Origin: Dethiosulfovibrio peptidovorans
GTDB taxonomy: Bacteria > Synergistota > Synergistia > Synergistales > Dethiosulfovibrionaceae
Direction: 5' to 3'
DNA length: 64,000 bases
NCBI GenBank assembly: GCA_002748665.1
Contig: PDTB01000016.1
Location: 1-64,000, forward strand
Shown here piece after piece: positions 36,538 to 52,240 of the stretch. Under the pieces are notes generated by a model. It worked only from the letters and a program-made list of their open reading frames with translations, had not been told where the DNA came from and did no database searches. Numbering within the stretch: position 1 is the first letter of the stretch; each line of letters starts with the position of its first letter. The translations under genes and the position numbers were made by a program.

Positions 36538-37536
36538 ATGAGAGAGACCGACCATTCCCTCGCCCACCCGAACCTCGACGAGGCACCCGTTTCTATTGAC
36601 AGAGACAACAACCAGCCCCCTCTCGGCCAACATCGACAGGGAGAGACCGCTGTACGGATCGGGGTCGACCTGGGAGGCCACAAGATTAACGTCGGAGCAG
36701 TCGTCGATGGGACTGTCACGTCGTCAGCTCAAGAACCAACGCCATCATCTCGAACACCCGATACGGTGATCCGGGCCATCGTCAGGCTCGTCCGCTCTCT
36801 GAACATCGACGAGCTCCTATCCGTGGGGATCGGATTGCCGGGGATGCTGTCTCTGGACCGACGGTCAGTCGTCCGACTGACGAACCTCCCCCGCTGGGAT
36901 AACCTTCCCCTGGCTCACCTTCTGGAAGATCGCCTGAAAGTGCCCGTGGTGCTCGACAACGACGCCAAATGCGCAGCCCTGGGGGAACTCGTGGCCGGCG
37001 AAGGCCAGGGAATGACCGATTTCGTCATGATAACCCTGGGCACGGGCATCGGTGGAGCTGTGGTCTCCGGTGGCTCGGTCCTACGGGGTAGGCGAGGCCT
37101 GGCAGGAGAGTTGGGACACCTGGGACTCCTCCATCAAGAACCTTGCAACTGCGGCGGCATGGGACACAGCGAGACACTCTTCTCCGCCGACAGATTCGAT
37201 CGACGATGCGTCGAGACCGGGGTACAATCGGTGCCAGCTCTCTGGAAGAAACGAAAAGAACCGAGGCACCGCCTCTTTTGGGACCGATCTTTGGAGGCTC
37301 TGGCATGCACGGTGATCTCAGCGGTGCATCTCCTGGACCCCCAGGCCATCGTGTTCTCCGGCGGCCTGGCCAGACTCCCCAACCTGATGGATGAACTGGC
37401 TCCTCTGGTGGAGGTTCGTCTGGCAACCGCCTTTCGCCCAGGCCCTCCGCTGCTGCTTTCCCAGCTGGGTGGCGACGGCCCTGTTATAGGTGCAGCCTCT
37501 CTGCTCCCCATTCGCGAAGAAACCGGGAGAGGATGA
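36538..37536 (+). CDS. ROK-family sugar kinase
   Basis: A 332-residue ROK protein, probably a glucokinase or related hexose kinase. IGVDLGGHKINVGAV is the phosphate-binding motif, VVLDNDAKCAALGE carries the catalytic Asp, and GTGIGGAVVSGG follows. The usual zinc motif CxCGxxGC reads CNCGGMGH, with the last cysteine replaced by histidine, which could still bind zinc. ATG 36538 has AGGAGG at good spacing and gives about 38 extra residues before the usual start. Convergent with the asparaginase gene, overlapping it by 53 bases. No DNA-binding domain, so it is an enzyme, not a NagC-type repressor. Confidence 0.85.
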   Translation: MRETDHSLAHPNLDEAPVSIDRDNNQPPLGQHRQGETAVRIGVDLGGHKINVGAVVDGTVTSSAQEPTPSSRTPDTVIRAIVRLVRSLNIDELLSVGIGLPGMLSLDRRSVVRLTNLPRWDNLPLAHLLEDRLKVPVVLDNDAKCAALGELVAGEGQGMTDFVMITLGTGIGGAVVSGGSVLRGRRGLAGELGHLGLLHQEPCNCGGMGHSETLFSADRFDRRCVETGVQSVPALWKKRKEPRHRLFWDRSLEALACTVISAVHLLDPQAIVFSGGLARLPNLMDELAPLVEVRLATAFRPGPPLLLSQLGGDGPVIGAASLLPIREETGRG

Positions 37537-38539
37537 ATCCCGGTGCTTCGGGAGAGGCCAGCAGAGCGTAGCACCCCAAGGCGTGGATGAACTCCAGAGG
37601 ATAGTTCATCTGCCCCCACACAGGAAAACCCGACGCCGCCAGAGACGCCAACCCCACATCGGCATAGCCACCAGGGTTTTTCATCCCCCCTTCGGCTTGG
37701 CTGCAGGCAACGACGTGGGGCTTGGGGGCATTGGCAAACACCGTACGGAGCTCCTGAAGAACCCCGCTGTGACAGTTCCCCAAACCATAGCCAACAACTG
37801 CAAGGATCCGTTCATCCCCTCGAAGCGACGGGACGACGCCTGGCGCACAAAAGACCCACCCCACCCCCCGAACGATCTCCTGAACCTTTTGGAGATCGGT
37901 GTTTATCGCTCGTTTTGAGAAATGAGACAACTCCATAGACCCAGGCTTTCTGATCGAAAGCCCCTGCCCTCTTCGTCCCCACTCAGGGTTAAAATACAGC
38001 GGCTGGCCGTTGACCGCCGTGTACGCATCGGGATACTGGGAGTGGGCCTTGTGAGCCCGATCTCCTGGAATGAGCTTCCAGTTGCAGTAGATCCAAACGC
38101 CGGGGACATCTGCACAGACCACCTGAGCAGCGCCCCGGAGATTCACCGTCACGTCCTCGGGCATGAAATCTAAAGTGAGCTGACTCCCCGTGAGAACAAC
38201 CGGGACATTCAGCTGAGGGAAACACAGGCTGAGCCACGCCGAGGTGTAGGCCATGGTGTCCGTTCCGTGAAGAATCAGGACACCCGTCGCTCCTTCACGA
38301 AGCTCAAAGGCAACCGTCCTGGCAAGCTCCACCCAGTGAACCGGCGTGAGTTCAGAACTATCGAGCCCCGGAACGCCCCAGGGTTCCCGAGAAACGACGA
38401 CCACATCCTGATCCTGGAAAATCCCCTCCACAAGCTCGTGAACCTCCTGGGAGGCGCGCTGATCGGGACCGGTCCGTCCCTCAGCACCCAAGGCACTGAC
38501 GATGGTTCCTCCTGTAAAGATAACCGCCAGTCGCTGCAT
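37484..38539 (-). CDS. L-asparaginase family protein
   Basis: A 351-residue asparaginase/glutaminase-like amidohydrolase. VIFTGGTIVSA at the N-terminus holds the first catalytic threonine and LILHGTDTMAYTSAWL the Thr-Asp pair. The C-terminal half is normal. It has no signal peptide, so it is probably cytoplasmic (type I-like). I chose ATG 38539; a weak GGCGGG precedes it, and ATG 38563 is an alternative. It turns asparagine to aspartate and ammonia, fitting amino-acid fermentation. Confidence 0.85.
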   Translation of the reverse strand: MQRLAVIFTGGTIVSALGAEGRTGPDQRASQEVHELVEGIFQDQDVVVVSREPWGVPGLDSSELTPVHWVELARTVAFELREGATGVLILHGTDTMAYTSAWLSLCFPQLNVPVVLTGSQLTLDFMPEDVTVNLRGAAQVVCADVPGVWIYCNWKLIPGDRAHKAHSQYPDAYTAVNGQPLYFNPEWGRRGQGLSIRKPGSMELSHFSKRAINTDLQKVQEIVRGVGWVFCAPGVVPSLRGDERILAVVGYGLGNCHSGVLQELRTVFANAPKPHVVACSQAEGGMKNPGGYADVGLASLAASGFPVWGQMNYPLEFIHALGCYALLASPEAPGFILSRFLREWGAERLHL

Positions 38540-38572
38540 GCAATCCCGCCTTTCATCGTACATCTCTCCTAA

Positions 38573-38828
38573 GGGAACCTCTAAAAACTCATAAACTCGC
38601 CTCAGGTCGTTTCGACAGAGCTCATCCGAGGTTCGTATTTTTGACCTGCCGTTGTGAAGTATCGACTGGTACGGACAGGACATCGTCCCAAGCCGGGAGG
38701 GCACAGGAGGTCCCCTTCGAGGCGACGGTACGGAGCATGCAGATCGAAAATACGTTTGGGTGAGACAGGGCTCTGACGGAACAACCTGAGGCTGGGAGAC
38801 TCGGATGTGGGTTTTTAAAGGTGCCCCC
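38573..38828 (+). repeat. Dispersed intergenic repeat, copy 4 (full length)
   Basis: About 256 bases, from GGGAACCTCTAAAAACTCAT to GGTTTTTAAAGGTGCCCCC. The ends are imperfect inverted repeats of each other. The right arm is the same sequence, inverted, as the left part of copy 5 at 51045. Confidence 0.88.
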
Positions 38829-38867
38829 AAAGAATCCAGAGCCAATGGGACGTGTAGAGGACGAATG

Positions 38868-38917: not shown

Positions 38918-39412
38918 CTACGCCACCAACTGATACACCCTGGAGGGGGCGCCGCACACCGGACATCTCTCCGGGGCGTTTCCCTCCTCGATGTGGCCAC
39001 AGACAGTGCAAAGGTAGTAGTCAACCGAACGCTTTTCCGACAGATGCTCCAGAGCCCTCTTATACAGATCGGCGTGGACCTTCTCGACCTGATTGGCCAG
39101 GTTGAACCCCGTCAAGGCCCGTTTTTCCCCTTCAGCCTTAGCGTTGGCGATAAATTCGGGGTACATCTCGGTGAACTCGTAGGTTTCCCCTTGGATAGCG
39201 TCTTTCAGGTTTGCCTCCGTCGAGCCGATTTTCCCCATGTTCCGATAGTGCATCTTGGCATGGATGGTTTCGGCTGCGGCGGCAGCGCGAAACAACCTGG
39301 CAACCGACTGGAACCCCTCTTTGTCGGCCACCTCGGCATAGAAAAGGTATTTCCTGTTCGCCTGAGATTCACCGGCAAAAGCCTCACTCAGATCAGCCAT
39401 GGTCTTGCTCAT
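38918..39412 (-). CDS. Rubrerythrin
   Basis: A 164-residue non-haem iron protein of oxidative-stress defence in anaerobes, reducing hydrogen peroxide. The N-terminal four-helix domain has EAFAGESQANRKYLFYA and the second ferritin-like ExxH (ETIHAKMH). The C-terminal rubredoxin-like domain has CTVCG and CPVCG binding one iron. I chose ATG 39412, six bases after GGGGGA. Single-gene unit; length normal. Confidence 0.93.
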   Translation of the reverse strand: MSKTMADLSEAFAGESQANRKYLFYAEVADKEGFQSVARLFRAAAAAETIHAKMHYRNMGKIGSTEANLKDAIQGETYEFTEMYPEFIANAKAEGEKRALTGFNLANQVEKVHADLYKRALEHLSEKRSVDYYLCTVCGHIEEGNAPERCPVCGAPSRVYQLVA

Positions 39413-39660
39413 GCCCATTCCCCCTTCCAGAATATATGGCGTATCCCTCTCTCTTGTAATTATACCACTGTGATACGGTAACTTCGAGGAAGATGGCGAG
39501 AGGAACGTATCAACCAAGGTGACCTGTAGGAGTCACTCGCCCTTGGTGGTGGCGTACGGCATGGTCACATCCATGATTGTAGCTATACCCCTTGCTCTCG
39601 GTTGAACTTGGGGCGTCGTCCTGGCAGCCATTTTCAGGAGCCCTCCCCGAACCGAACGTC

Positions 39661-40590
39661 TCAATCTCCATCAGCAAGACACCGACGCCAGAGAAAAGGA
39701 TTCTCGTCGATGGGAACGTCCCAGCTACGGGCGATGTCCCGAACACAGAGCAGATGAATCACCGGCACACCCCGATCGAGATATCGGCAAAACAATCCCT
39801 CTCGGGGCATGGAATCGAAAGGAGCCTTAGTGATTCCGCCGGGAAAGGCCGCAGATTCCTCCCCACTGCCAAAAGTCACATCCGCCCCGCCAATGCCGAC
39901 AAAACACCGGACACCACTCTCTCCGGCTGCTTCTTCGTACAGCCTCAGACGATACTCAACGCTCTCCTTCAACCCCGGTTCCAGGATAAACCCCGCTCCC
40001 AGACGCCGAGCTTCCTCAAGAACCCGCTCCCGCCACTGGGGAAAGAGGGGGGCCTCATCCCGATCATTGCGACCTCCCAAGGAGAAACCCAAAAGCACGG
40101 GAGCCACCAAACCTCTTTTCGTAAGATCTCGAACGAGATCCACCACCGTAGCTCCTAACCGGTTGGCTCCGTACATGGATGAACCCAGGGAACAGATCAG
40201 CAGAGGGCGAAGCCCCACGGCCTCACAAGCCGACAAAACGGCAACGAGAAGGCCCGGAAAAGAGGCACTGGCCCCGACAGCCACGACATCACCCCGATCC
40301 AGTCCCAGGTTATGAAAAAGACGCACCATACCGGAAGCCATCAGAGGATGGGTAGATGTTCGTTTGTCCTTCAGGTGTCCCAAGGTCGTCGTCAGGGGGC
40401 TGAACTCCACACCGATAAGCCCCGTGCCATAGGGGTCAAGATCGGCAGAGACCACGATATCCCGCCGAAAACACCGATACAGCGCCTCGTTCAGACAATC
40501 CTCCATGATCTCCGCCGCACGCATCTCCTGCGACGATACTGCCAACACCTCGGTACTCCCGAGAAAGACCACGAAGCCCAGTGCGACCAT
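39661..40590 (-). CDS. Second PgsW-like poly-gamma-glutamate system protein
   Basis: A 309-residue protein homologous to the protein at 45766-46830; shared motifs are LIGVEFSPLTTTLG, TSTHPLMASG against the paralogue's TACHPSWALA, GASASFPG, SLGSSMYGAN and VPVIHLL near the C-terminus. I chose ATG 40590, which gives a clean signal peptide (MVALGFVVFLGSTEVLAVS); the longer frame runs through a terminator hairpin. PgsW-type proteins are known only from their company with pgsB and pgsC; their activity is unknown. It is the last gene of the locus and sits just past a terminator, so it may be expressed at a lower level. Confidence 0.75.
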   Translation of the reverse strand: MVALGFVVFLGSTEVLAVSSQEMRAAEIMEDCLNEALYRCFRRDIVVSADLDPYGTGLIGVEFSPLTTTLGHLKDKRTSTHPLMASGMVRLFHNLGLDRGDVVAVGASASFPGLLVAVLSACEAVGLRPLLICSLGSSMYGANRLGATVVDLVRDLTKRGLVAPVLLGFSLGGRNDRDEAPLFPQWRERVLEEARRLGAGFILEPGLKESVEYRLRLYEEAAGESGVRCFVGIGGADVTFGSGEESAAFPGGITKAPFDSMPREGLFCRYLDRGVPVIHLLCVRDIARSWDVPIDENPFLWRRCLADGD

Positions 40591-40593
40591 ACG

Positions 40594-40618
40594 GAAAAAG
40601 CCCCCCATAAGGGGGGCT
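40594..40618 (-). terminator. Intrinsic terminator inside the pgs locus
   Basis: On the minus strand AGCCCCCC-TTAT-GGGGGGCT is followed by TTTTCCG, 18 bases after the dipeptidase stop and directly before the start of the last gene. It should limit read-through. Confidence 0.8.
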
Positions 40619-40635
40619 CGTGATATCGTCACGAA

Positions 40636-42207
40636 CTAACGCTTCAGCGGACCATAGCCGATGAAGTCGTTCCACTCCTGAGGATAGCCCGTTATCTTGA
40701 AGTTCTGGTATCCCAGAGCGTAGTTACCCAAGAGGTGATCGCCCAGCTTGAGCCACGTACGGTTCCAGTCAACAGCCCGGTCGTACGCAAAAGTGGAAAC
40801 CAAATCCACAGCGGCAGCCTTCTTGCCGTGGTTCCAAAGCTCAGCAGCATCCTTCTGGACAGCGTACGTCTCGGAGAACTGAAGCTTCATCTTGGGATCC
40901 CGAAGAGCATAGATCTCCTTGATAGCCTCGCAGTAGCGAAGAGTAGCCATCTGCTGGACATAGGAGTTCACCCACCAGCCGGAATCACGACGGAAGTCCT
41001 CGTAGCGGGAACCAACCTCGTAGAATTTGGGAAGCTCCTTCATGACAGGCCACAGAGGCGTGAGGTAGGTGGTATCCGGTGCGCCATAGCCAAACCAGCT
41101 GATACCCTTGAAAGGGCCGCTGATCTTGGGGTTGACCTCGCCGATGTGAACGTAGCAGGTGCGATGCATGTTGATGGAGCGCTCCCAGGAGCCTTTACCC
41201 TTGTTGGCATATCGAAGAGGATTCCCCCAGGGACCAGCAGCCGGCCCCTTGGTCAGGTCGTAGGCCGTACCCTGATAGTAGTCGCCTTTGATCTTGAAGA
41301 CATCCCACACAGAGAGCTTCTTATCGGGCTTGACGAAGAGAGGATAGTTGTATTCGCTGGGACCCTGCTTAAGAGAAGGAGCCACGAGCTCCTGAGCCCT
41401 CCAGACCCGCCGGGTGGCATACAGTTTATCGTTGGGAGCGTACACATCAGCAGGGCTGAACTTCGTGGCATCAACATCAAGGCGACGGATCCAGCCCTTT
41501 TTCACGCCGTAGGAGATGAGGTTAGGTGAGTGCATGACGTTCTCTTTGTCAGTGAGGTCGATGTCGCGCAGCCTGGCGCGGTTGGCCGAGACGAAAAACA
41601 TATCGTCGGGCATACGGACGGCGCACCACAGATCTCGGCCGTAGAACTCGGCGATCCAGACCTCGTTGCCGTCGGTGATATCCATGGTCTCTCCGCTACC
41701 GGCCCAACCATATTCCTCCACCAGATCGCCCATGATGCGCACGGCCTCCCGAGCCGTAGCAGCCCGCTCCAGAGCGATATCCTGGGCCAGCCAGCAATCG
41801 ATGATGCCGTCGCTGTCGGTCACAAGATCCTTTTTGATCTCGGCATCCTGAGTGCCAAAGGTGGACTCGCCCATGGCAAGGCCCATCTCGTTCATGAAGG
41901 AATAGCGGCTCTTAAAGTAGCGATAGGTATGCTTCACCTGAGAAGTTTCACCCATCACCTCTCCGGGCTTATATCCATGGTCGTTCATGATAAGCTCCCG
42001 AACGGATCCGGCGGGCCAGTCCTTCTCAGGGATAATCCAGAGCTTGAAGTTGGCACTCGTTGAGTCGTCGTTATGGGTGATAATCGAGGTTCCGTTCACC
42101 GTAGCTTTTTTCCCCACAGCAACGATGGTACACGCCGAAGCGGCCATGGCAAAAACAGCCACAAAACACAGTGTGACAACCAGAGATATCAGTTTTTTGT
42201 TCTTCAT
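40636..42207 (-). CDS. Secreted C69-family dipeptidase
   Basis: A 523-residue protein. A signal peptide (about residues 1-25) ends ASA just before Cys26, in CTIVAVGKKATVNG. In C69 (PepD) enzymes this cysteine becomes the N-terminal nucleophile after cleavage. ITHNDD and NEMGLAMGESTFG are further family motifs. It would act outside the membrane on short peptides. In this locus the likely substrates are gamma-glutamyl or other glutamate-rich oligopeptides freed from the polymer, which is inference. A terminator follows. Confidence 0.88.
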   Translation of the reverse strand: MKNKKLISLVVTLCFVAVFAMAASACTIVAVGKKATVNGTSIITHNDDSTSANFKLWIIPEKDWPAGSVRELIMNDHGYKPGEVMGETSQVKHTYRYFKSRYSFMNEMGLAMGESTFGTQDAEIKKDLVTDSDGIIDCWLAQDIALERAATAREAVRIMGDLVEEYGWAGSGETMDITDGNEVWIAEFYGRDLWCAVRMPDDMFFVSANRARLRDIDLTDKENVMHSPNLISYGVKKGWIRRLDVDATKFSPADVYAPNDKLYATRRVWRAQELVAPSLKQGPSEYNYPLFVKPDKKLSVWDVFKIKGDYYQGTAYDLTKGPAAGPWGNPLRYANKGKGSWERSINMHRTCYVHIGEVNPKISGPFKGISWFGYGAPDTTYLTPLWPVMKELPKFYEVGSRYEDFRRDSGWWVNSYVQQMATLRYCEAIKEIYALRDPKMKLQFSETYAVQKDAAELWNHGKKAAAVDLVSTFAYDRAVDWNRTWLKLGDHLLGNYALGYQNFKITGYPQEWNDFIGYGPLKR

Positions 42208-42328
42208 CGCTCACACTCCTTGTTCTTTGTTTGGTCCCACAATTTCCCGGGACACCGCTCGTTCTTCTGACGCGGGGCTGTTCTGCCGTCGCACCACTCC
42301 CCTCCTGAACTTCTTTTTCCTGCTACGA

Positions 42329-43534
42329 TCAATTCCAGAAGATCTTGGTACTGTGAGCCTTCGACGGATCGTGAAGGTAGGCACCGATACCGTTAGCCAT
42401 GACATCGTCAAACTCAGGCCAGCTCGCTTGAAGCTCCTTCTCTGGAAAGAAATCGTTCATCTGACGAACCAACTCGGCCACGGACGACAGATGCCGCCCG
42501 ACCCGGTATTTCATGGGCGCACCAAATTCTATGTTATATTCGGGAACACAATACAGCAAACCATGCTCCGAAGCCGTCTGGAGGAACTCGTCCTTCCCCT
42601 CCATCATGAGAGACTCGTTGATCTTGCCAGCCACTCGGTCGATAAAGGGTTCCATCGTCTCCATCAACACAGCGAAGACACCATCATACCCCTCTTCGGG
42701 AAGGGCCGTATAGTCCCCCACCTCCCGGTGAGAGAGGCCTCGAAGACTCTTAGGGCTGGCCTCGCACTTCATGGGGAAGGTCGTTGCGCTCAGCTCCATA
42801 GCGGCCATCATGGCGATGTCCAAGGCTTTATCGTGAGCCACATATGTGCTGACCACGGGGTACATAAGGGACGCCTCGTGGGTATCGCAGTAGAGATCGG
42901 CCTTTTCCTTGCGGATAAGCTCCATGAGAGCGAAGGCCAACTGCTCGGTCAGGTTCCCATCAGGCCGTCCGGGATACGTTCGGTTCAAATTCCGGGCATC
43001 CGTATATGCAAGGTTCTGCTTGGATGGATAATGAACGTACGTGAAGGGGTCTGGCCACTGATCCAGAGGATCGCTGGCCCTGTCACCTATCCTGTAGGCC
43101 TTGGGACCGAAGGACGTCTGGACGTGAAGAAACTTGGGATAGGCATTCCCCAGCATCCCCACTCTGGAGGCGCTCATATTGGCATGAGGAATGACGAACA
43201 CCCTGCCCTTAGTCACGGAGATGTTTTCCATAACCACATAGGCCGCCAACATAGTGGCAGGCTCGTAGGGATGAGTCCCTCCCAGAAAGATCAGCGTCCC
43301 CCCAGGGACCCCCGAGTCGTACAGATACACCGGAGTGTCCACGCCGGTGCCCTTGATACCCTCAAAATAATCGCTGAGCATGATCTTTTTTGTAAAAGCG
43401 TCTGAAACAACCACGGACTCCTTGTAGTTCTGGAGCTCCATAAATTCCCGACCGCCCAGAAAAGCCACCACGGCCACCAAAGCCAGAACAATCAGTTTTC
43501 GGGGAGTAATCCCGGTCTTCTTATCGGTCATCAT
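42329..43534 (-). CDS. Membrane-anchored M14-type metallohydrolase (succinylglutamate desuccinylase/aspartoacylase-like)
   Basis: A 401-residue protein with one N-terminal membrane segment (LIVLALVAVVAFLGG) and a zinc hydrolase domain outside. GGTHPYEPA near residue 87 gives the HxxE zinc ligands, ADLYCDTHEAS near residue 213 the third, and PEYNIEFG near the end is a likely catalytic glutamate. This fold cleaves acyl-amino-acid or carboxy-terminal peptide bonds. Placed in a poly-gamma-glutamate locus, it is a good candidate for cutting gamma-glutamyl chains. It lies between the dipeptidase and small membrane protein genes. Confidence 0.8.
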   Translation of the reverse strand: MMTDKKTGITPRKLIVLALVAVVAFLGGREFMELQNYKESVVVSDAFTKKIMLSDYFEGIKGTGVDTPVYLYDSGVPGGTLIFLGGTHPYEPATMLAAYVVMENISVTKGRVFVIPHANMSASRVGMLGNAYPKFLHVQTSFGPKAYRIGDRASDPLDQWPDPFTYVHYPSKQNLAYTDARNLNRTYPGRPDGNLTEQLAFALMELIRKEKADLYCDTHEASLMYPVVSTYVAHDKALDIAMMAAMELSATTFPMKCEASPKSLRGLSHREVGDYTALPEEGYDGVFAVLMETMEPFIDRVAGKINESLMMEGKDEFLQTASEHGLLYCVPEYNIEFGAPMKYRVGRHLSSVAELVRQMNDFFPEKELQASWPEFDDVMANGIGAYLHDPSKAHSTKIFWN

Positions 43535-43542
43535 GGCCTCTC

Positions 43543-43725
43543 CTACTTAATGTGAAGAACCCGAAGGACAAAGGGGATCAAGGTGTAAGCGTAGACGATA
43601 TCGTAGATCAGCCCAGTCCTGGTCTTCCTGAAAAAGAGGTTTCTAAGGAGCAGAAACCCAAAAAAGGCCGCAATAACGTAGTATAGCTGGTGGATGATCT
43701 GGTTCAGAAATGGAATCACCGGCAT
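43543..43725 (-). CDS. 60-residue membrane protein of the pgs locus
   Basis: A 60-residue protein with one or two hydrophobic segments (VIAAFFGFLLLRNLFF, then YAYTLIPFVLRVL). GAGGAGGGG directly before the ATG overlaps the stop of the permease gene, and the hydrolase gene follows 8 bases later, so its translation is coupled into the operon. Position next to a large permease suggests an accessory subunit. I know no family for it. Confidence 0.7.
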   Translation of the reverse strand: MPVIPFLNQIIHQLYYVIAAFFGFLLLRNLFFRKTRTGLIYDIVYAYTLIPFVLRVLHIK

Positions 43726-43732
43726 CCCCTCC

Positions 43733-45028
43733 TCATCGAATCACAAGAAACTTGAAGAAATTAGCGTTCATCAACATGACAAGAGCCACCAATCCCATAA
43801 ACAGAGCCGGCACGAAAACGCCTCTCAGGAAGGACATATAGCTGCCCTCATACCCCGAAACCTCAATAGCCACTCGGCCAGAGATACGGGACGGGGGCAG
43901 GCAGTCGCCCAGAGGAAACATGAGGCTCAGGGCCGCCGCCACCACCGTGACGTTAAACCCCACGGAATTAAACAGGAAGATAAGAGGAGTCCCCAGGATT
44001 ATGGCACTACCGTAGCTCAGAGAGCCCTGAGCCATGGGAAGGACGAACAGAGCCGTCACGTAGATAAAGAAGGTCGGCAGGGTGACAAACGTAATGGCGA
44101 TCAATCCACGAACACCCGTAGCCGTCATGATATTCACCAGCACACCAACACTGATAACAGTCGCCAGCAGGGGGAACACCTGCTCCAAGGTATCCAGTAT
44201 AGTGCCATACCATTCCCGCAGGGAGCGACGCACCGGCGAACACAGAACCGCCACACCACCGGAGATAAGGAAGTTCAGAGGCAAACCAATAGTAGGCATG
44301 CTGAACGCCATATACTTGGAGAGCACCACGATGACCAGGAACGTCACCATAGGAGCCAGTATCCGAAACCAGTTCATCCCGGCAGGAGGCTCGGGAAGCT
44401 CGGACATAATCTTCTCCTTGGCCTGAGGCTCGCCACCTCTCAGAAGGTACACAACGGTAAAGATCGTTATCACCACAATGGGCACGACAAGAGGAACGGT
44501 GAATCCCACATAGGGCATATTGGCCTGAGCCGCCATAAGCATCGCCCAAAGATTGATCGGCGGCGCCACAGCCGACAGCATCGACGTCACGTAGATAAAG
44601 GCCGTAGTTCGAACGGAGGAGATCCCCATATACCGAAGGACCGTAGCGATCATGCCGCCGACGACGAACATGGACACACTACCGGCACCGGTCAGAGCGC
44701 CGGGGATAAGCATGATCACGGCCAGGATGGAGAAAAGAACCCACTTACGACTGTAGAATTGATCCACCATCTTTCGGACCAAAGCGTTCATGGCCCCAGT
44801 GGCGGAATAGACGTTGATGAACACCGATGCCGTGATGAAGATCAATCCAACGTCAAAGTAAGTGAACGTCCCTTCAACCAGAAGCCGTACAGGGAACCAG
44901 AGCCTTCCGGCAAGAGCACCGGCAATGGCAGTGATCACCATGGATATCTCCGGCGACTTGAGCTTCCAGCTGCACAGAGCAAAGACTACGGCCATCACCG
45001 CCAGAACCAAAGAGGTCTCGACGTACAT
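43733..45028 (-). CDS. Large permease of the ion-transporter (IT) superfamily, TRAP DctM-like
   Basis: A polytopic protein of about 431 residues with 10-12 hydrophobic segments, in the general style of DctM/DcuC/CitM permeases. Glycine-rich re-entrant stretches such as IPGALTGAGSVSMFVVGGMI and AQGSLSYGSAIILGTP are typical. There is no classic TRAP small subunit or substrate-binding protein with it, unless the 60-residue and DUF6305-like neighbours take those places. Probable substrate: glutamate, a glutamyl oligopeptide or a dicarboxylate. Start: ATG 45028, or TTG at 45034, which has better spacing to GGAGGG. Confidence 0.75.
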   Translation of the reverse strand: MYVETSLVLAVMAVVFALCSWKLKSPEISMVITAIAGALAGRLWFPVRLLVEGTFTYFDVGLIFITASVFINVYSATGAMNALVRKMVDQFYSRKWVLFSILAVIMLIPGALTGAGSVSMFVVGGMIATVLRYMGISSVRTTAFIYVTSMLSAVAPPINLWAMLMAAQANMPYVGFTVPLVVPIVVITIFTVVYLLRGGEPQAKEKIMSELPEPPAGMNWFRILAPMVTFLVIVVLSKYMAFSMPTIGLPLNFLISGGVAVLCSPVRRSLREWYGTILDTLEQVFPLLATVISVGVLVNIMTATGVRGLIAITFVTLPTFFIYVTALFVLPMAQGSLSYGSAIILGTPLIFLFNSVGFNVTVVAAALSLMFPLGDCLPPSRISGRVAIEVSGYEGSYMSFLRGVFVPALFMGLVALVMLMNANFFKFLVIR

Positions 45029-45057
45029 AGACAAGAGCAAAGCCCTCCTTTTAAGAA

Positions 45058-45651
45058 CTACTTAGAGTACATATCTTTGATGACAGGCATTAAATCTCTG
45101 GTATCATCAATGACGGTCAGGGGAGCGTTGTTCTTCTTTGCCAACTCGGTGAACCGACCATCGGTATTGCTGTCGGCCTTCACTATGAAAGCCTGAGCAT
45201 ACGGGGCGATGGCGTCGATTGATCTCTCGTCAGCACTGCCGGGCTTTCCCCTGCGGGCAGCTCCCTCAATGTGGGCAGCGATCACCTGGATACCCTCTTT
45301 CTTGCAGGTTTCCATTATAGCGTTCAGACGGGCAATCTCGTCGTCGATCGTGACGCCCGATGCGCCCAATCCCTTGGCGGAGGAGCCGATAACGACCAGA
45401 ACCGTCTTATAGCCACCGGAGACGATCTCCTCGGGCGTAGGTTCGGCGTTGTATGTTATGTCCTTCACGGCCTTGGATCGACTCACCAGAAGCCGTCCCA
45501 TCTTACCTCCCGGTCCCTGGCCAGCGTTGGTGATGAGCAAAGGCTCCTGCCCCTTCAAGGGCGCATCTCCTGTAACGGCAGCCAGAGCCGCGAGGGGAAG
45601 CAGGGACAGAACCATGACAAAAAGAGCCAAAGAGCACAACGTTTTTCGCAT
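45058..45651 (-). CDS. Secreted DUF6305-like protein
   Basis: A 197-residue protein with a signal peptide (about 25 residues, ending LAALAA) and a Rossmann-like domain of alternating strands and helices (LLITNAGQGPGGKMG, TVLVVIGSSAKGLGASG, IQVIAAHIEGAARRG). It matches my memory of DUF6305, a family of unknown function. Exported and encoded directly before the permease, it may act as a binding protein. I chose ATG 45651 because GAGGAGG precedes it. A promoter candidate lies upstream. Confidence 0.7.
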   Translation of the reverse strand: MRKTLCSLALFVMVLSLLPLAALAAVTGDAPLKGQEPLLITNAGQGPGGKMGRLLVSRSKAVKDITYNAEPTPEEIVSGGYKTVLVVIGSSAKGLGASGVTIDDEIARLNAIMETCKKEGIQVIAAHIEGAARRGKPGSADERSIDAIAPYAQAFIVKADSNTDGRFTELAKKNNAPLTVIDDTRDLMPVIKDMYSK

Positions 45652-45695
45652 AACACACAACCTCCTCAAAATAGTGAACTGAAGCATTCCTCTTT

Positions 45696-45725
45696 AGGAT
45701 ATCCTGTAGACACCTTTTCGGTCAA
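45696..45725 (-). promoter_or_regulatory. Possible internal promoter in the pgs locus
   Basis: On the minus strand TTGACC (45725-45720), 18-base spacer, TATCCT (45701-45696), 45 bases before the DUF6305-like start. It would let the transport and hydrolysis genes be expressed apart from pgsBCW. Confidence 0.4.
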
Positions 45726-45765
45726 CGCCCTCGCCGTCGAGCGTCCAATTTGAACCGTTTTGTTC

Positions 45766-46830
45766 TCAATCGTTTTCGATATCGTGACAGAATCGGATCC
45801 GACCCAACCCATACAGAGCTGCTCCATACAGGAAAAGACCAAGAAGAGCCCCGCCGGTAGAGCGACGTCCCCCACCCCACATAACCGGTTTTCGATCGAA
45901 AGGGATCCCCTCACGGTCCGCCAGTTCCCGTAGGTTCAAAAGATGGATCACAGGATACCCCGACTTCAGGGCACGACCAATCACGCCGTCGCCACCTTCA
46001 GTCTCCCCTGGACGATGGATTCCCGGGGATAACGTCAGAATCGCCGGATCGTCGCCCATGTTAGCGCTGGAACCACCGATGGAGATAACCGCCTTAGGGT
46101 CGAGAGAGCGAATCCAGCTCATCTTCCAGCGGATGACCTCGCTTTTGGACCCACAGCGTCGAAGAGGAACGCCCACCTCCGAAGCTGTCCGTTCCATGAC
46201 AGCCCAAGCCTCGGGAGAGAGCCCACCGCCGGTTTCTCCTTCCCCGCCCGGTGTGTACACCTGAGCTCGAACGTGGAGAAATCCCAGACGTCGAAGAGCC
46301 TGAGCCATCAAAGGCCAGGGGGCCTTGGGATCGTTGCAGCCCCAGGTGGACGACCCAAGGGAAACAAGCAAAGACACGTCCAGCCCTCGATACTCGGCTG
46401 CCATCAAGACGTTGAGAAGCATTCCAGGAAAGGACGCCGACGACAAAACGGCCACAGAATCGCCAGGAGAGAGCTCCAAGCGATCAAACCATCTCAGAGC
46501 CGCCAGAGCCCAAGATGGATGACATGCCGTTCGTTTGGACGGCAAACTGCCTAACGTCGTGGACAAAGGGCTCCATTCGAGCCCGATCAGCCCCAGATCC
46601 CAGGGATCGGATTCATGAGACGCCTGAGAGCCACGACGCAGACGCCATTCTCCCACCGCTCTCTCCGCATCACGAACGGTGGTCCAGAGGCGGGCCTCTT
46701 CCAAGCTCAGATTCGAACCAGACCAGATCCACAGCCCCCACAAAGTCGAGGCCAGGCAGAGAAGGCACGCACTTCGAAGGAGACGAATCCGCCGGGTTCG
46801 ACGGCGATACCCCGTGAGATCCAGCGTCAC
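45766..46830 (-). CDS. PgsW-like poly-gamma-glutamate system protein
   Basis: A 354-residue protein with an N-terminal membrane segment (LLRSACLLCLASTLWGLWIW), an outside domain and a second hydrophobic segment near the C-terminus (GALLGLFLYGAALYGLG). LIGLEWSPLSTTLGSLPSKR, VLSSASFPGMLLN and VSLGSSTWGCNDP are shared with the paralogue at 39661. It overlaps the end of pgsC by 4 bases. The family is known by its link with pgsB and pgsC, where it stands in place of PgsA/CapA. Molecular role unknown. Confidence 0.8.
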   Translation of the reverse strand: MTLDLTGYRRRTRRIRLLRSACLLCLASTLWGLWIWSGSNLSLEEARLWTTVRDAERAVGEWRLRRGSQASHESDPWDLGLIGLEWSPLSTTLGSLPSKRTACHPSWALAALRWFDRLELSPGDSVAVLSSASFPGMLLNVLMAAEYRGLDVSLLVSLGSSTWGCNDPKAPWPLMAQALRRLGFLHVRAQVYTPGGEGETGGGLSPEAWAVMERTASEVGVPLRRCGSKSEVIRWKMSWIRSLDPKAVISIGGSSANMGDDPAILTLSPGIHRPGETEGGDGVIGRALKSGYPVIHLLNLRELADREGIPFDRKPVMWGGGRRSTGGALLGLFLYGAALYGLGRIRFCHDIEND

Positions 46831-47267
46831 AGAACGGCCTCCTTCAACGCCACGAAAAGGGAAAAAGCCATGGCGGTTGCCGCTGCCGTCGACACAGAGG
46901 CCGCAACCGTCACCAGCGGCCCCTGACGCTGAAAATCAGCGGCGACGAGACCGGGGACCGCCCACCCCAGCCACACCCCCATGGGATCGCCCAAACCGCC
47001 AATAATCAGACGAAACAGGACGGCCAGCCCCATCGAAACAGCCATCCGTTGACGGCCGTAGAGAACCGTCACCCGACTCAGCCCCTCCAGAACAAGCCAG
47101 ATCGCCCCAGCGGCGGTGAACGTCCACACGATCTCCATGGGAACCGTGAGGGAGACGGCCAACACCCCCGGAGTGATGATGCCCCCGCAGGAAAGACCGG
47201 TCTGTCGATACAAGAGCATCCCGAGCCCAATACCCAGCAGAAGACGCCACAGAGAGCTTTCAATCAC
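46827..47267 (-). CDS. pgsC: Poly-gamma-glutamate biosynthesis membrane protein PgsC/CapC
   Basis: A 146-residue protein made of about four or five membrane segments, matching PgsC/CapC in size, with the N-terminal GIGLGMLLYRQTGLSCGGIITPG stretch typical of the family. With PgsB it forms the membrane synthase that joins glutamate through its gamma-carboxyl and passes the chain out. It lies 22 bases after pgsB and overlaps pgsW. The start is a GTG. Confidence 0.88.
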   Translation of the reverse strand: MIESSLWRLLLGIGLGMLLYRQTGLSCGGIITPGVLAVSLTVPMEIVWTFTAAGAIWLVLEGLSRVTVLYGRQRMAVSMGLAVLFRLIIGGLGDPMGVWLGWAVPGLVAADFQRQGPLVTVAASVSTAAATAMAFSLFVALKEAVL

Positions 47268-47289
47268 ACGACATCATCTCCCAAAAGAT

Positions 47290-48264
47290 TTAAAGACAAG
47301 AAAGTCTGAGAAGCAAGGGAAACCCATGCACGACGTTTCCACACCCAAACACCCGTCCACTTCGAGAGATCAGATCGGCCAAATCCCACTCAGACCGAAG
47401 AGGGCGATAGGACGGCGCCCCTACGACAAAGGGGCGATCCCCCACGACCAGCCTCTCCTTCCAGCGCTCGTCACCGATCCATGGAAGAAACTCTCGAAGC
47501 CGCTGAGGCCTGTCGCCCCTATGGTTGAACAAAACCGTAACGTCCTCCCGGGGCCAGGACAGAGACTCAAAAAGCTCCTGAGTCGTCATCACATCGTTGG
47601 CCGAAAAGCCAAAAGCCAACTGCCCGTCTCCCACCCTCAAAACCGAAAAATCAGCCACATCGGGCGGAAGAGAGCGTAAAGCAGGGAGAACCGAGACATC
47701 GTCAAGCCCAGACAGACGGCAGACCTCCAAAGCCAGACCAGCGTTGACGGCCAGATGGGACGCCATTCCCTCGACAGGCCGGGCAATCGTCAGATCACAC
47801 TGCCTGTCCTGAAGAAACACCCGAAGCGGAAGGCACCGAGCGGCCTCCTCGGCCCAAACGACCGTTCCGCCAAAGGGGATCCCCCGGCACAGGGCATCGG
47901 CAGCACCGGAACGCCCCGGACCCCACACATCCTGATGATCAGGCCGAACGTTCGTCAAAACAGTCACAGTTGGCCTGAGCCATCGAGCGGCAAGGGGTTG
48001 CAGCTCCCCCGAGACGGCGCTGTTCTCCATCACCACCGCCTGAGCGTCTGAGGGAAGCTCGTCGAGCCACCATGCCATCTCCTGAACATGAGCCCGTCGA
48101 CCGCGAAGAATCGGCCGCTCCCCGCCGGGCGTCAACGTCCTGGGGACGACCCCGGTTATTCGACCATACGCCCGAAAACCGCACGCGACGAGAGCCCGAT
48201 GGATAAGACGGGTCACAGTGCTCTTACCCCTACTCCCCGTGACGAGAACCCGCAACGGAATCAC
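47290..48264 (-). CDS. pgsB: Poly-gamma-glutamate synthase subunit PgsB/CapB
   Basis: A 324-residue amide ligase related to Mur ligases. VLVTGSRGKSTVTRLI near the N-terminus is the ATP-binding loop. VVMENSAVSGEL near residue 87 and TNVRPDHQDVWG near 122 are the family's metal and substrate motifs. It activates the carboxyl of the growing chain and adds glutamate. I chose GTG 48264 after GGAGGGGAGGAGGG; the open frame extends 9 codons through this ribosome site. It is the first gene of the locus and is somewhat shorter than Bacillus PgsB. Confidence 0.9.
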   Translation of the reverse strand: MIPLRVLVTGSRGKSTVTRLIHRALVACGFRAYGRITGVVPRTLTPGGERPILRGRRAHVQEMAWWLDELPSDAQAVVMENSAVSGELQPLAARWLRPTVTVLTNVRPDHQDVWGPGRSGAADALCRGIPFGGTVVWAEEAARCLPLRVFLQDRQCDLTIARPVEGMASHLAVNAGLALEVCRLSGLDDVSVLPALRSLPPDVADFSVLRVGDGQLAFGFSANDVMTTQELFESLSWPREDVTVLFNHRGDRPQRLREFLPWIGDERWKERLVVGDRPFVVGAPSYRPLRSEWDLADLISRSGRVFGCGNVVHGFPLLLRLSCL

Positions 48265-48464: not shown

Positions 48465-48946
48465 TTGGGGATATACGTCAAATACCTCTTTGGCAAGCAG
48501 GAACACCACGAGATCCTTCTGGACTTTATCAACGACGCCGTCTTCGACGAAGACGACAGACGCTTCACCAAACTCATGCAGATAAATACCGAACTGACCC
48601 CGGAAGGACAGAACCAGAAACTCTGCCGTCTCGACAGGGTAGCTGAACTGGACAACGGAGTCACTGTCGACATAGAGATCCAGATCGTAAACGAACACGA
48701 CTTCAACAAAAGACTCCCCTACTACTGGGCCATGAGTCACGGCAGCAAAACGTCTACGGCATAGCCAACGTGGAAGGCAGGGTGGAAGGCATCTTCACAG
48801 GCAAGAGAGAGGAAAACCTTGTAATAACGTACAATCTGCTGGATGATGGCATCCCTGACTCGGGTATCTGTACGTACACGGGGCTCTCGCCGGAAGATGT
48901 CGCTGAACTTCGAAAACAAAAGCCTCTCAATCATGAGAGCCCCTGA
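48465..48946 (+). pseudogene. Truncated Rpn/PD-(D/E)XK transposase-like gene
   Basis: From 48465 the frame reads KYLFGKQEHHEILLDFIND and continues to the nuclease core (GVTVDIEIQIVNEHDF), matching residues 25-115 of the intact gene at 51239. Then about 100 codons are missing, and in a shifted frame VYGIAN joins VEGRVEG and the C-terminal TGLSPEDVAELR. One internal deletion with a frameshift has killed it. The 5' end is also degraded. It is inverted relative to the intact copy. Confidence 0.8.
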
Positions 48947-49167: not shown

Positions 49168-50619
49168 TTAGAAATTGACCTGAGTACGGAACCGGATCAA
49201 GCTGTCGTCACCGACATTGTTATCGTAATCAATATCGTCATAGACAAGCTCGAAGGAGAGAGCAGGAGTGTAGTAGTACTTGGCACCCAAGCTCCAGTTC
49301 GTCACGTCATTGTTGTTGATCCCCTGATCCACACCAACATAGCGAAGAAGGGTCGACCATTTGTCGCTCCACTTCTGCTCGGCCTTGGCATAGAGAACAG
49401 AGATATCATCGACGCCATTACCCAAAGCAGGAGTGACACCCGGCCCAGTCGTCGGATAGTTATCGTAGGGATTGGAACCAGGGATAGCCTGATAGGTAGC
49501 GTCGAAGTTAGCGTACTCGAGCCACAGACTGGTAAACTTCAAGGCCTCCTGCTTCACGTCCAAGATAGCCTTAAAAGCACTGGGACTATCATCCCAAGCA
49601 CCCACAGGTGCAACAACGTCCTGATCCTGCATGTAATAAGCACCCTTAAAGGCAATAGCAGGGGTGAAGTTAAGAGTAAAGTTAGCCCAATAGGTACTGA
49701 TACCCTCAATGGTGCCGGCAGGGTACACAGCATTCGCGGTGTCATCAGCATCCTGAACGAAGGCGTTCAGCGCCATGCTGAACTTCTCGTTGAAGTTGAA
49801 CTTGGCGCGCAGACCGTAGAACTGGGTATCATAAGTAGGCGTCCCCGGTAACGCGGAGATCCAAGGGAAGCTTCCGTAATCATTGCCGCCCTCGTCCCGA
49901 GCCAGATATACAGCCACCTCACCGAGCCCAAAGGACTTTGTGAACAGGAAACCCTGAGTGGTGACGTCCATCACGAAGGCATCGTTATCGGTATACAGAC
50001 CGTCCTCATCCTCCCAATCAACGTTAAACAGACCAGCCCGCATGGAGATGTCCCAAGGAAGATCCACGTCGATGTAGTAGCGCTCGAACACGGCATTCCG
50101 ACTACCCAGACGAGCAGTGAAGGTCACCTTGTCGTCGACTTTCTTCTGCATCCAGATACGGTAACGAGCCACGGTCCAGTCACTCTCGTCAATCCGGTTG
50201 TCGTAGTAGCGGACATCAAAACGGAAACTACCCCAGAACTTCCAGCCACCGATGTTCTCCTCGAGAACGGCGACACGGCTGTCAATCTTATCTACCTGAA
50301 CACCCAGAGCATCAAGCTCGTCTTTGAACTCGACGACGAGGCGCTTAAGCATCTCGACATCCTGCTTGCTGGCCTTCTCCATGTCGACGACGGCGAGAGC
50401 ACGAGCGACGACAGAGGCCATCTCGTAACGGGTCATGGGCTGGTTACCCTTGAAGGTACCATCGGGGAAGCCGGAGATCACACCACGGGCAGCAAGCTGA
50501 CCGACGGCATCATAAGCCCAGCAGTTCATAGGAACGTCCATAAACGGATTTGCGGCAAAGGCGGGAGCGGCAAAGGCCACAAGAGCCACTACAGCCAAAA
50601 GTGCACAAAGCTTTTTCAT
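49168..50619 (-). CDS. SLH-domain outer-membrane porin (OmpM type)
   Basis: A 483-residue protein. Residues 1-22 are a signal peptide. About 23-80 is one SLH domain (FMDVPMNCWAYDAVGQLAARG, then FPDGTFKGNQPMTRYEMASV), which in Synergistota and Negativicutes anchors the protein to cell-wall polymer. About 85-120 is a coiled coil (DALGVQVDKIDSRVAVLEENI). The rest is a beta-barrel of alternating hydrophobic strands ending RFRTQVNF with a terminal phenylalanine, the signal for outer-membrane assembly. It probably tethers and perforates the outer membrane. A good promoter, a long leader and a very strong terminator suggest high expression. Confidence 0.93.
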   Translation of the reverse strand: MKKLCALLAVVALVAFAAPAFAANPFMDVPMNCWAYDAVGQLAARGVISGFPDGTFKGNQPMTRYEMASVVARALAVVDMEKASKQDVEMLKRLVVEFKDELDALGVQVDKIDSRVAVLEENIGGWKFWGSFRFDVRYYDNRIDESDWTVARYRIWMQKKVDDKVTFTARLGSRNAVFERYYIDVDLPWDISMRAGLFNVDWEDEDGLYTDNDAFVMDVTTQGFLFTKSFGLGEVAVYLARDEGGNDYGSFPWISALPGTPTYDTQFYGLRAKFNFNEKFSMALNAFVQDADDTANAVYPAGTIEGISTYWANFTLNFTPAIAFKGAYYMQDQDVVAPVGAWDDSPSAFKAILDVKQEALKFTSLWLEYANFDATYQAIPGSNPYDNYPTTGPGVTPALGNGVDDISVLYAKAEQKWSDKWSTLLRYVGVDQGINNNDVTNWSLGAKYYYTPALSFELVYDDIDYDNNVGDDSLIRFRTQVNF

Positions 50620-51238: not shown

Positions 51239-52240
51239 TCAACCCTGAGAGCTTTTTCGTGCTCGAAGGTGAGCGATGTCATCTGGGGAGAGGTTCGTTA
51301 TGTCACAGACCTCCGCCTCCGACATACCACGACCCAATAGATTCCACGCTATCGAAAGCGCTCGTTTTCTGTCGCCTTCCTCAAGGCCCTCTGCTCTACC
51401 TTCTGCTCGACCTTCTACTCTACCTTCTGCCCGGCCCTCTACTCTACCCTCTACTCTACCCTCTCCCCTAGCCTCTTCAATCCGCTCTTCGTAGTCCGAT
51501 TCGTTCATCAAGGACTCTATGAGCACTTTTTGTTCTGGAACGTAGTTGAGCATCTGGTCTCTGTCTGCCCAGAAATTCCTCTCAAAAAGCAACGCCTGAG
51601 CGATCTCTTTGTCTACTTCCGCTATCTCTCTCATCTTTTCTCCCTCCACATTGCTCAGGTAGGTGAGCCAACGCTGAAGCCCCGTCTGCCTCGGCAGAGG
51701 GTCTTCTTTCTGGAATTTGTCCAGCTCAAGGTAGATGATCTGCATGTCGTCACACAGGGGCTTACCGCTTTTCAGGTTGGCGATCCCGTAGACGTTTCGG
51801 TACGGTTTCTCTTCCCTCAGCAAGGTAAAGGCCAAAACACAGATGACGATCGTCTTCGTGATTTTCGAGTATGGAACACCGCTCTCAAGCTTGCTCGAAT
51901 GACGCATCGCCCAATAAAACGGAGCCCTTTTTTTGAAGTCTCGCCTGTTCAGAAGCTGTACCTCTATGTCCACTGTCACTCCGTCGTCGAGCTCGACAGA
52001 AAGGTCGAGTTGAGAGAGCTTCAGATGCTGTACGGCCGGAGGCATTTCCGTGTTGGTCTTGATGAGTTTGGTGAAGTGCCGCTCTCCCTCGGGAAAGACG
52101 ATGTCATTGATGAAGTCCAGAAGTATAGCGCAGTGTTCCTTCCTGCCAAAAAGAGATTTAAAGAACCGGTCGTGTATTCGGTTGATCCGATTCTCTCCCA
52201 CGTCTATAAAAAACTGCGGACGAGCCTTCGCATCGCTCAT
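51239..52240 (-). CDS. Rpn-family recombination-promoting nuclease / PD-(D/E)XK transposase-like protein
   Basis: A 333-residue protein. HDRFFKSLFGRKEHCAILLDFIND at the N-terminus and LDDGVTVDIEVQLLNRRDFKKR near residue 85 carry the D-(x)-ExQ nuclease core of the Rpn/PDDEXK_2 family. A basic and acidic repeat tract EGRVEGRAEGR lies near residues 255-290, and a C-terminal helix-turn-helix-like region ends TNLSPDDIAHLRA. Rpn proteins of E. coli are DNA endonucleases that promote recA-independent recombination. AAGGAGG precedes the ATG. A dead inverted copy lies 2.3 kb away across the porin gene. Confidence 0.85.
   Translation of the reverse strand: MSDAKARPQFFIDVGENRINRIHDRFFKSLFGRKEHCAILLDFINDIVFPEGERHFTKLIKTNTEMPPAVQHLKLSQLDLSVELDDGVTVDIEVQLLNRRDFKKRAPFYWAMRHSSKLESGVPYSKITKTIVICVLAFTLLREEKPYRNVYGIANLKSGKPLCDDMQIIYLELDKFQKEDPLPRQTGLQRWLTYLSNVEGEKMREIAEVDKEIAQALLFERNFWADRDQMLNYVPEQKVLIESLMNESDYEERIEEARGEGRVEGRVEGRAEGRVEGRAEGRAEGLEEGDRKRALSIAWNLLGRGMSEAEVCDITNLSPDDIAHLRARKSSQG
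51383..51478. repeat. Short tandem repeat inside the Rpn-like gene
   Basis: About eight 12-base units of the type CTCTACTCTACC (plus strand), read on the minus strand as repeats of EGRV or EGRA. Unit number could change by slippage without breaking the frame. Confidence 0.7.

Follow-up and report, generated by a model that had tools for sequence, protein, structure and literature searches.

A pgsBCW locus of Dethiosulfovibrio peptidovorans adjoins a recurrent hydrolase and permease cassette that may cut and re-import a gamma-glutamyl polymer

The 64,000-nucleotide stretch of Dethiosulfovibrio peptidovorans DNA considered here (the window, part of contig 16 in a genome of 2.06 Mb) carries a nine-gene locus on its minus strand, running from position 48264 to 39661, in which genes of a putative poly-gamma-glutamate (gamma-PGA) synthase adjoin those of hydrolases and a permease. 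The order, pgsB, pgsC, pgsW, D, P, s, M, X and W2, is the one given by the initial annotation and is borne out by the open reading frames (ORFs) and family assignments; D stands for a DUF6305 protein, P for the permease, s for a 60-residue membrane protein, M for an AspA/M14-type hydrolase, X for a C69 peptidase, W2 for a second pgsW, and DPsM for the D-P-s-M cassette. The first gene, pgsB (47290..48264, start GTG 48264; TIGR04012 and PF08245), encodes a Mur-ligase-type amide ligase of 324 amino acids (aa) in the short form of Synergistota; pgsC (46827..47267; PF14102) encodes its membrane partner, and pgsW copy 1 (45766..46830; TIGR04332, tree and model) a transmembrane (TM)-anchored alpha/beta protein of the native Synergistota clade. 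D (45058..45651, likely start ATG 45651; PF19823) is a secreted DUF6305 protein with a single alpha/beta domain and a signal peptide recognised by reading. P (43733..45040) is a multi-TM permease of the IT superfamily, nearest to TRAP DctM and DcuC, as judged from a DcuC match and hydropathy, and s (43543..43725) is, by hydropathy and alignment, a 60-aa membrane protein with two TM segments and Lys as its last residue. M (42329..43534) is assigned as a membrane-anchored AspA/AstE/M14-type zinc hydrolase from its conserved residues and PDB matches, X (40636..42207; PF03577) is a secreted C69 peptidase of the N-terminal nucleophile (Ntn) type, and W2 (39661..40590; TIGR04332 and tree) belongs to a different clade from copy 1.

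A terminator-like hairpin with a T-rich tail (40601..40615, minus strand) lies between X and W2, one of 18 such sites in the region against a shuffle mean of 10.1, which is weak alone. Because this hairpin follows X, W2 probably starts at ATG 40590, the codon chosen by reading, rather than at GTG 40632. The genes had been described as packed with overlaps, but the sole true overlap is that of pgsC and pgsW (4 nt); the remaining gaps are 22, ~114, 17, 7, 8 and 121 nt, with P, s and M spaced by 7-8 nt. The absence of PgsA/CapA was correctly noted: PF09587 matched none of the nine genes and nothing in the whole genome, whereas 7 of 14 control genomes were positive. The G+C content is 59-62% in pgsB, pgsC and pgsW and 46-56% from D to X, and with 54% in the window as a whole, the cassette is not marked out as foreign DNA by its base composition.

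The locus consists of two separable modules, pgsB-pgsC-pgsW (pgsBCW) and DPsM plus X and W2. Around PgsW matches in other Synergistota genomes (52 of the 70 that bear PgsW), we took 60 stretches and labelled their genes with profiles built up from the proteins of the window. The genes come from an ORF layout of our own, which hides or misses some pgsC and s genes, and the short loci L001-L030 were left out of the layouts. Five of the six other genomes of the same genus were fetched, and four (L031, L032, L033 and L035) have their genes ordered as in the window; pgsC was labelled in two of these (L031 and L035) and, in the case of L032, at another locus of that genome (L093). The fifth, L034, has B-C-W, with M and a 563-aa gene further upstream. 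The unit D-P-s-M-X-W2 also stands apart from pgsBC, in L037, L055, L058 and L060 (s unlabelled in the last). Seventeen of 20 further DUF6305 copies lie in the order D-P-M, 15 of these with s labelled, and the exceptions, L108 with a solitary D and L106 and L107 with their genes rearranged, all belong to one genome. Cassettes mostly adjoin either a C69 peptidase (X) or a protein of ~560-600 aa; two of the latter were scanned and are gamma-glutamyltransferases (GGT; PF01019), and one further neighbour of this type, on the opposite strand in L049, matched nothing. Two kinds of cassette, C69 and GGT, can thus be told apart.

A scan of 84,980 species genomes with the M alignment gave at least 593 candidates, at least 562 of them confirmed, and 80 were kept; counting the window's own, the sets together comprise 147 distinct M genes. 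For the 125 that have at least 2.5 kb of upstream sequence, P lies within 400 bp in 118 and s in 109, and D lies within 6 kb in 121 and within 2.2 kb in 102. Where both flanks are present, 72 of 91 M genes have C69 or GGT encoded no more than 3 kb away, and in 27 M-selected loci with 8 kb per side, pgsW, pgsB and pgsC lie within 9 kb in 22, 21 and 19, respectively. DPsM is a unit. Going by their record titles, the matches listed come from Thermotogota, Spirochaetota, Acidobacteriota/Aminicenantes, Atribacterota, Bacillota, Gemmatimonadota, Bacteroidota, Ignavibacteriota, KSB1, Bipolaricaulota and Synergistota. Two records are labelled as archaea (Methanoculleus and Thorarchaeota metagenome-assembled genomes (MAGs); L111 and L136) and are probably mis-binned contigs; the M of L111 adjoins a Kosmotogaceae M in our tree. 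That unrelated operons simply abut in the window might be read from the gaps of more than 100 nt and the hairpin within the locus, but the recurrence of the gene order in other genomes rules out chance adjacency and, together with the proximity counts and the co-occurrence described below, leaves that explanation with next to no probability.

The initial annotation had looked to a wider survey for the same order, and the order does recur in Synergistota. A plasmid of Cetobacterium somerae (Fusobacteriota) carries a colinear locus of the GGT kind, annotated independently of us: histidine kinase, response regulator, ggt, DUF6305, TRAP large permease, a hypothetical protein, 'succinylglutamate desuccinylase', pgsB, pgsC and pgsW; this was the only record returned by plasmid searches with M, W and D. 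Across phyla, however, the orientations vary. Among 77 loci with pgsB within 9 kb of M, a count that includes a few doubles (e.g. L140/L210 and L171/L216), the cassette precedes BCW colinearly in 28, BCW precedes the cassette colinearly in 23, and the two are convergent in 21 and divergent in 5. The cassette and BCW are therefore not one frozen operon.

Cassette and synthase are also linked at the level of genomes. PgsW was present in 42 of 48 M-selected genomes (E value 0.001 or better; 40 over the cut-off), traced from 50 of the 80 M loci, and in none of 14 controls. Surveys for PgsC, unselected for M bar one anchor genome each, were positive in 9 of 59 Halanaerobiia, 2 of 291 Clostridia, 11 of 218 Spirochaetota and 17 of 217 Acidobacteriota, and M was sought in 80 genomes of these surveys, with the anchors and a weak Spirochaetota match (G791) left out. 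It was found in 7 of 8 PgsC-positive Halanaerobiia and 14 of 16 PgsC-positive Acidobacteriota. PgsC-negative genomes had it in 1 of 47 cases (Halanaerobiia 1 of 15, a 62-residue fragment; Spirochaetota 0 of 16; Acidobacteriota 0 of 16). In Clostridia, PgsC was confined to the anchor and one weak match, and M to the anchor and 1 of 290 non-anchor genomes, the latter a fragment with a stop. The 103 Thermotogota genomes have M in 19 and PgsW in 17, every PgsW genome being M-positive; once 8 M-selected genomes are removed, M is present in 10 of 10 genomes with PgsW (two partial matches) versus 1 of 85 without. Among 185 Synergistota genomes, PgsW was found in 71 and DUF6305 in 69 (68 over the cut-off), both in 62 and neither in 107; by genus (62 in all), 33 have both, 2 PgsW only, 1 DUF6305 only and 26 neither. 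Fisher tests of these associations treat genomes as independent, ignoring kinship, and so overstate them. In the groups sampled, then, the cassette is nearly absent where there is no synthase, and this suggests a polymer meant to be taken back. Recurrence and co-occurrence together give strong support to the earlier proposal that the genes for synthesis, outside cleavage and re-uptake form one system.

The same counts bear on the possibility that the cassette is a general scavenger of environmental glutamyl peptides, including the gamma-PGA of other organisms, which merely tends to sit near polymer-making genes. A free scavenger would be expected to be common in genomes without a synthase, and the near absence of M from PgsC-negative genomes, PgsW-negative Thermotogota and non-anchor Clostridia counts against it. 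In its favour, several paralogous cassettes can occur in one genome, and C69 and GGT enzymes act on many peptides. Scavenging is also what an excerpt of PMC4497714 proposes for other gamma-PGA hydrolases. We regard this explanation as quite improbable.

D matches DUF6305 (PF19823) with 151.9 bits against a cut-off of 25 and is modelled as one confident alpha/beta domain (predicted local distance difference test (pLDDT) 95.4); K68, E80 and D139 are invariant and R108 and R109 are kept in at least 90%. The model gave only generic fold matches and no specific fold relative, and the PDB sequence search no credible match. For the window's P, the DcuC match is weak and partial (28.1 bits, cut-off 23.1; E value 9e-7), and nothing credible came from the PDB sequence search; among 30 relatives, DctM was matched in 10 (E value 0.01; the window's own P not among them), DcuC in 3 and TRAP_fused in 3, and the relative from Cetobacterium carries the annotation 'TRAP transporter large permease subunit'. 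Hydropathy gives 11 segments for P in the window and 12-13 in 46 of 60 relatives. The small protein s matched no family over its cut-off in a Pfam scan of the window copy; it has two TM segments in 39 of 60 cases, invariant Y15, F52, R55 and K60 among 32 aligned sequences, and Lys as the final residue in 32 of 32.

M of the window lies just below the cut-off for the AstE/AspA catalytic domain (PF24827; 24.7 bits versus 25), the Cetobacterium M reaching 30.5, and it matches the DoeB family with an E value of 5e-8, far below that family's cut-off. Its nearest solved relatives in the PDB are DoeB/AspA-type deacylases. H88, E91, N182, N184, R185, D217, H219, E220 and E292 are invariant in 25 of 25 sequences, so that the motifs HxxE, NxNR (NLNR) and H-E-A (DLHEA-type) and a late Glu are all kept in what looks like a zinc-site pattern; the zinc-binding roles among these residues we take from the AspA/AstE/M14 family. 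The Cetobacterium M also matches, below the cut-off, Peptidase_M99, a family of cell-shape carboxypeptidases that cleave a gamma-D-Glu bond. A single N-terminal hydropathic segment is present in 56 of 60 M proteins, and one such segment is likewise found in 48 of 60 D and 57 of 60 X proteins. A search for viral relatives of M gave 19 pattern matches, none of which was confirmed. X matches PF03577 with 229.3 bits (cut-off 23) and falls short of the stricter NF033678 (199.3 versus 250); by reading, Cys26 directly follows its signal peptide, and its best PDB match is the dipeptidase 5iau (9.8e-25). In the GGT-type proteins, some of which are not beside a cassette, the Thr that is presumably the catalytic nucleophile is kept in 42 of 42 aligned.

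Taken together, these features lead us to think it somewhat probable that the locus encodes a cycle in which a gamma-glutamyl polymer is made, cut and re-imported. PgsB and PgsC would build a chain from glutamate, or from a closely similar compound, at the membrane and pass it to the outside; PgsW would stand where Bacillus has PgsA/CapA. Outside the membrane, the secreted Ntn-type hydrolase (C69 here, GGT in the sister kind) would shorten or hydrolyse the chain, and so would M, which we take to face outwards. The TRAP/DcuC-like permease P and its 60-residue partner s would then re-import the products, and the secreted D could serve P as a ligand-handling partner. The substrate, the direction of transport, the part of D as a binding protein and a storage or coat role for the polymer are what we infer in this scheme. 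More tentatively, DPsM may be an undescribed class of uptake system, combining an outward-facing zinc hydrolase with a three-part TRAP-like carrier that has DUF6305 and 60-residue subunits; with pgsBCW and C69 or GGT, it might allow anaerobes of many phyla to deposit amino acids extracellularly in gamma-linked polymeric form and recover them later, like an extracellular cyanophycin, the Synergistota using a divergent ligase and perhaps another monomer.

Several results weigh against the proposed cycle. The window PgsB scores 132.9 bits against the equivalog TIGR04012, below its cut-off of 222.7, and D is predicted to be a single domain and not a two-lobed receptor. In the PgsC-selected set, C69 or GGT is encoded 3 kb or less away in none of the 6 M loci with both flanks. 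The orientations are largely lineage-specific, with 20 of the 21 convergent loci outside Synergistota (Aminicenantes/Acidobacteriota in nearly every case) and Bacillota accounting for 4 of the 5 divergent loci, so that with some loci counted doubly there is a handful of independent arrangements and not 77. PgsW was not seen in 6 of the 48 M-selected genomes, and 2 of the 103 Thermotogota have M only, some of these genomes being MAGs; in Synergistota, 9 genomes have PgsW without DUF6305 and 7 the reverse. In many genomes the cassettes outnumber the synthases (as many as 7 DUF6305 and 6 M matches), so the copies need not all act on one polymer. Finally, M was found in 0 of 9 PgsC-bearing Spirochaetota, and the synthase can therefore exist without the cassette; other Spirochaetota records have the two side by side (L124, L130 and L131). 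The initial annotation had held that the neighbours would be unrelated if pgsBCW were widespread without them, which is mostly not so, these nine genomes being the part of the evidence that goes the other way. At the Spirochaetota pgsBCW loci without a cassette (L199-L208), the upstream neighbour was acyl-CoA-synthetase-like in 4 of 5 cases and N-formylglutamate-amidohydrolase-like in 1 of 5, which places the synthase there in another gene context.

Two of these points also tell against another explanation, that the cassette makes or matures the polymer, its hydrolases trimming, releasing or anchoring chains and its permease exchanging a counter-solute or supplying substrate. A GGT beside pgsBC recalls capD, which encodes the GGT of the Bacillus cap operon that trims, releases or anchors chains, and at some loci a two-component system lies between or beside cassette and synthase. 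CapD is one of five Cap proteins according to an excerpt of PMC5542703. Maturation enzymes are harder to reconcile with cassettes that outnumber synthases, with those standing apart from BC (L037, L055, L058 and L060; L091, L092 and others) and with the nine Spirochaetota genomes that have PgsC without M. The permease superfamily, moreover, is mainly known for the uptake of small anions. We consider a role in maturation unlikely.

At Halanaerobiia loci (L191-L193 and L210, the place of L140) an extra DUF6305 gene lies between pgsW and a histidine kinase/response regulator pair, ahead of D-P-s-M; DUF6305 may also serve in sensing. A gene of the lactate racemase family (LarA-like) occurs near D or the pgs locus in L145, L146, L168, L174, L177, L178 and L071, mostly Aminicenantes, and its product could act on a hydroxy-acid or amino-acid analogue. 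In five Aminicenantes/Acidobacteriota loci (L147, L160, L171, L211 and L216), a gene of ~200 aa, the tested copies of which matched no family over the cut-off, precedes P, and an opposite-strand gene of ~700 aa lies between it and D; the L147 copy of the latter is an M28-type peptidase.

The nature of the monomer turns on PgsB. The window protein has a Mur ligase middle domain (PF08245, 34.6 bits; cut-off 24) and a P-loop that is intact by reading. G19, R21, G22, K23, E89, D118, H119, R258, D260 and R261 (numbered from GTG 48291) are near-invariant, and the core ATP-site residues are so in Synergistota and other PgsB alike (50 and 67 aligned). Because these core residues are kept, the window protein appears to work like PgsB though it lies outside the equivalog class. 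Synergistota PgsB is nonetheless a divergent subclass: both proteins tested fall under the TIGR04012 cut-off, which the Cetobacterium PgsB passes with 381.9 bits; the median number of residues before the P-loop is 17 against 39 in the others, with starts taken at the first possible codon; and two residues past a near-invariant Glu, Ser stands in 98% of 50 Synergistota sequences where Met stands in 67 of 67 others. The monomer is therefore not proven, and the product is best not called polyglutamate before analysis. These differences would suit a short PgsB whose substrate is some other amino acid, or one that attaches gamma-linked residues to an acceptor that is not a polymer. On the other hand, the C and W partners and the cassette are the same as those that accompany canonical-type PgsB in other phyla, and the shared ATP site points the same way; we hold a product other than polyglutamate to be possible but rather doubtful.

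The other synthase proteins are assigned as follows. PgsC of the window reaches 84.9 bits with PF14102 (cut-off 27) and 62.5 bits with TIGR04011, under the cut-off of 96.45. The PgsW copies score 306.8 (copy 1) and 269 bits (W2) against TIGR04332, for which the cut-off is 100. Copy 1 is modelled as a TM-flanked alpha/beta protein (pLDDT 88.8), with no specific fold relative found from the model and no credible match in the PDB sequence search. In a quick PgsW tree, copy 1 falls inside a 49-row Synergistota clade, and the clade of W2, with 28 rows, also holds Bacillota, Halanaerobiia, Thermotogota, Spirochaetota and a single Acidobacteriota protein; each clade has a support of 100, and we therefore rejected W2 as a recent duplicate of copy 1. 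The second PgsW copies of other Synergistota (L037, L058 and L060) take a third position, so 'W2' is not one lineage. A further, divergent PgsW group (L038, L040, L041, L043 and L083), from a sister genus (g3), has neither BC nor cassette labelled nearby.

The tree of M gives a similar picture. On 145 M proteins, the label for a C69 neighbour (78) or a GGT neighbour (29) needs 2 changes, whereas shuffled labels need ~25.5 on average and were as low as 2 in 0 of 500 trials; this clustering is inflated by near-copies, and long branches (e.g. L106, L107 and L109) are unsafe. The C69 kind spans many phyla, and the GGT kind is, in our sample, mostly found in Synergistota, plus Cetobacterium. The clade in which the window M falls has a support of 99 and comprises 33 proteins, 32 of them with C69 neighbours; it includes members of Thermotogota, Atribacterota, Bacillota and Acidobacteriota. 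Sequence identity of the window M to the best ~25 of the 80 loci is 52-63%, with Fretibacterium at 71%, and among 24 other Synergistota M aligned it is 35-46% with 21 and 75-85% with the three closest kin. Since M and W2 group with non-Synergistota proteins and copy-1 PgsW with Synergistota, the cassette with W2 differs in history from the adjacent BCW, and that a cassette of other history adjoins a native synthase supports a working link between them.

Other features surround the locus. Downstream of W2 by ~0.8 kb is an asparaginase-family ORF (37484-38845, minus strand; PF00710, 133 bits), for which a part in breaking down amino-acid amides is possible, and between the two sits a rubrerythrin/nigerythrin-like gene (38918-39415). 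Directly upstream of pgsB are, by reading, short broken-looking relatives of the Rpn family (48465-48946, plus strand); then come an SLH-type porin-like protein (49168-50619, minus strand; por_somb 70 bits, under the cut-off of 100) and an Rpn-family recombination nuclease/transposase ORF (51239-52240, minus strand; 125 bits). At locus L093 of a sister species, a GGT-type DPsM cassette lies on the pgsB-upstream side; the window genome, with only two DUF6305 matches, appears to lack it. The window genome has a second cassette, X-D-P-s-M (L091, contig 15, 131500-151400), with no pgs gene labelled within that 20-kb stretch.

In the open-access literature we found no paper on DUF6305 and none on the DPsM cassette or on PgsW by that name; the sole related mention for PgsW is a gene annotation, 'poly-gamma-glutamate system protein', in an excerpt of PMC5362203. 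An excerpt of PMC5542703 names Synergistetes and Fusobacteria among the groups in which PGA capsule genes are especially abundant. The cassette makes re-uptake of the polymer directly testable. If the proposed cycle is true, it would give a function to four families with a vague annotation or none (DUF6305, PgsW, a 60-aa hypothetical protein and a 'succinylglutamate desuccinylase') in about a dozen phyla, as named in the record titles, and would point to a novel carrier type that works with a secreted protein.

The locus shares with the Bacillus pgsBCA(E) and capBCADE operons a PgsB-type ligase and PgsC, and the GGT-kind cassette has in GGT a counterpart of CapD. It differs in that the window genome lacks CapA and has PgsW instead, and in the added permease, zinc hydrolase, DUF6305 protein and small membrane protein. 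A Gram-negative producer of polyglutamate is Fusobacterium nucleatum (Candela et al. 2009, as cited in excerpts of PMC3815933 and PMC4497714), and in the same phylum, Fusobacteriota, Cetobacterium somerae carries the locus complete and colinear; the window, in contrast, is from Synergistota, with a divergent PgsB and a C69-kind cassette. P resembles the TRAP (DctPQM) and DcuC/IT carriers in its DctM/DcuC-like sequence and in being accompanied by a secreted protein and a small membrane protein. However, D is a DUF6305 protein with a single alpha/beta domain, and s has ~60 residues and two TM segments where DctQ has four. With the zinc hydrolases of the AspA/AstE/DoeB and M14/M99 families, M shares HxxE, NLNR, the DLHEA-type motif and the later Glu, but it has an N-terminal TM anchor, is presumed to face outwards and belongs to DPsM. 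The PghP-type gamma-PGA hydrolases of phages and Bacillus are likewise zinc enzymes, related to carboxypeptidases and acting on gamma-PGA (excerpt of PMC4497714), whereas M gave only AstE/AspA in the Pfam scan and has DoeB/AspA-type proteins as its PDB matches.

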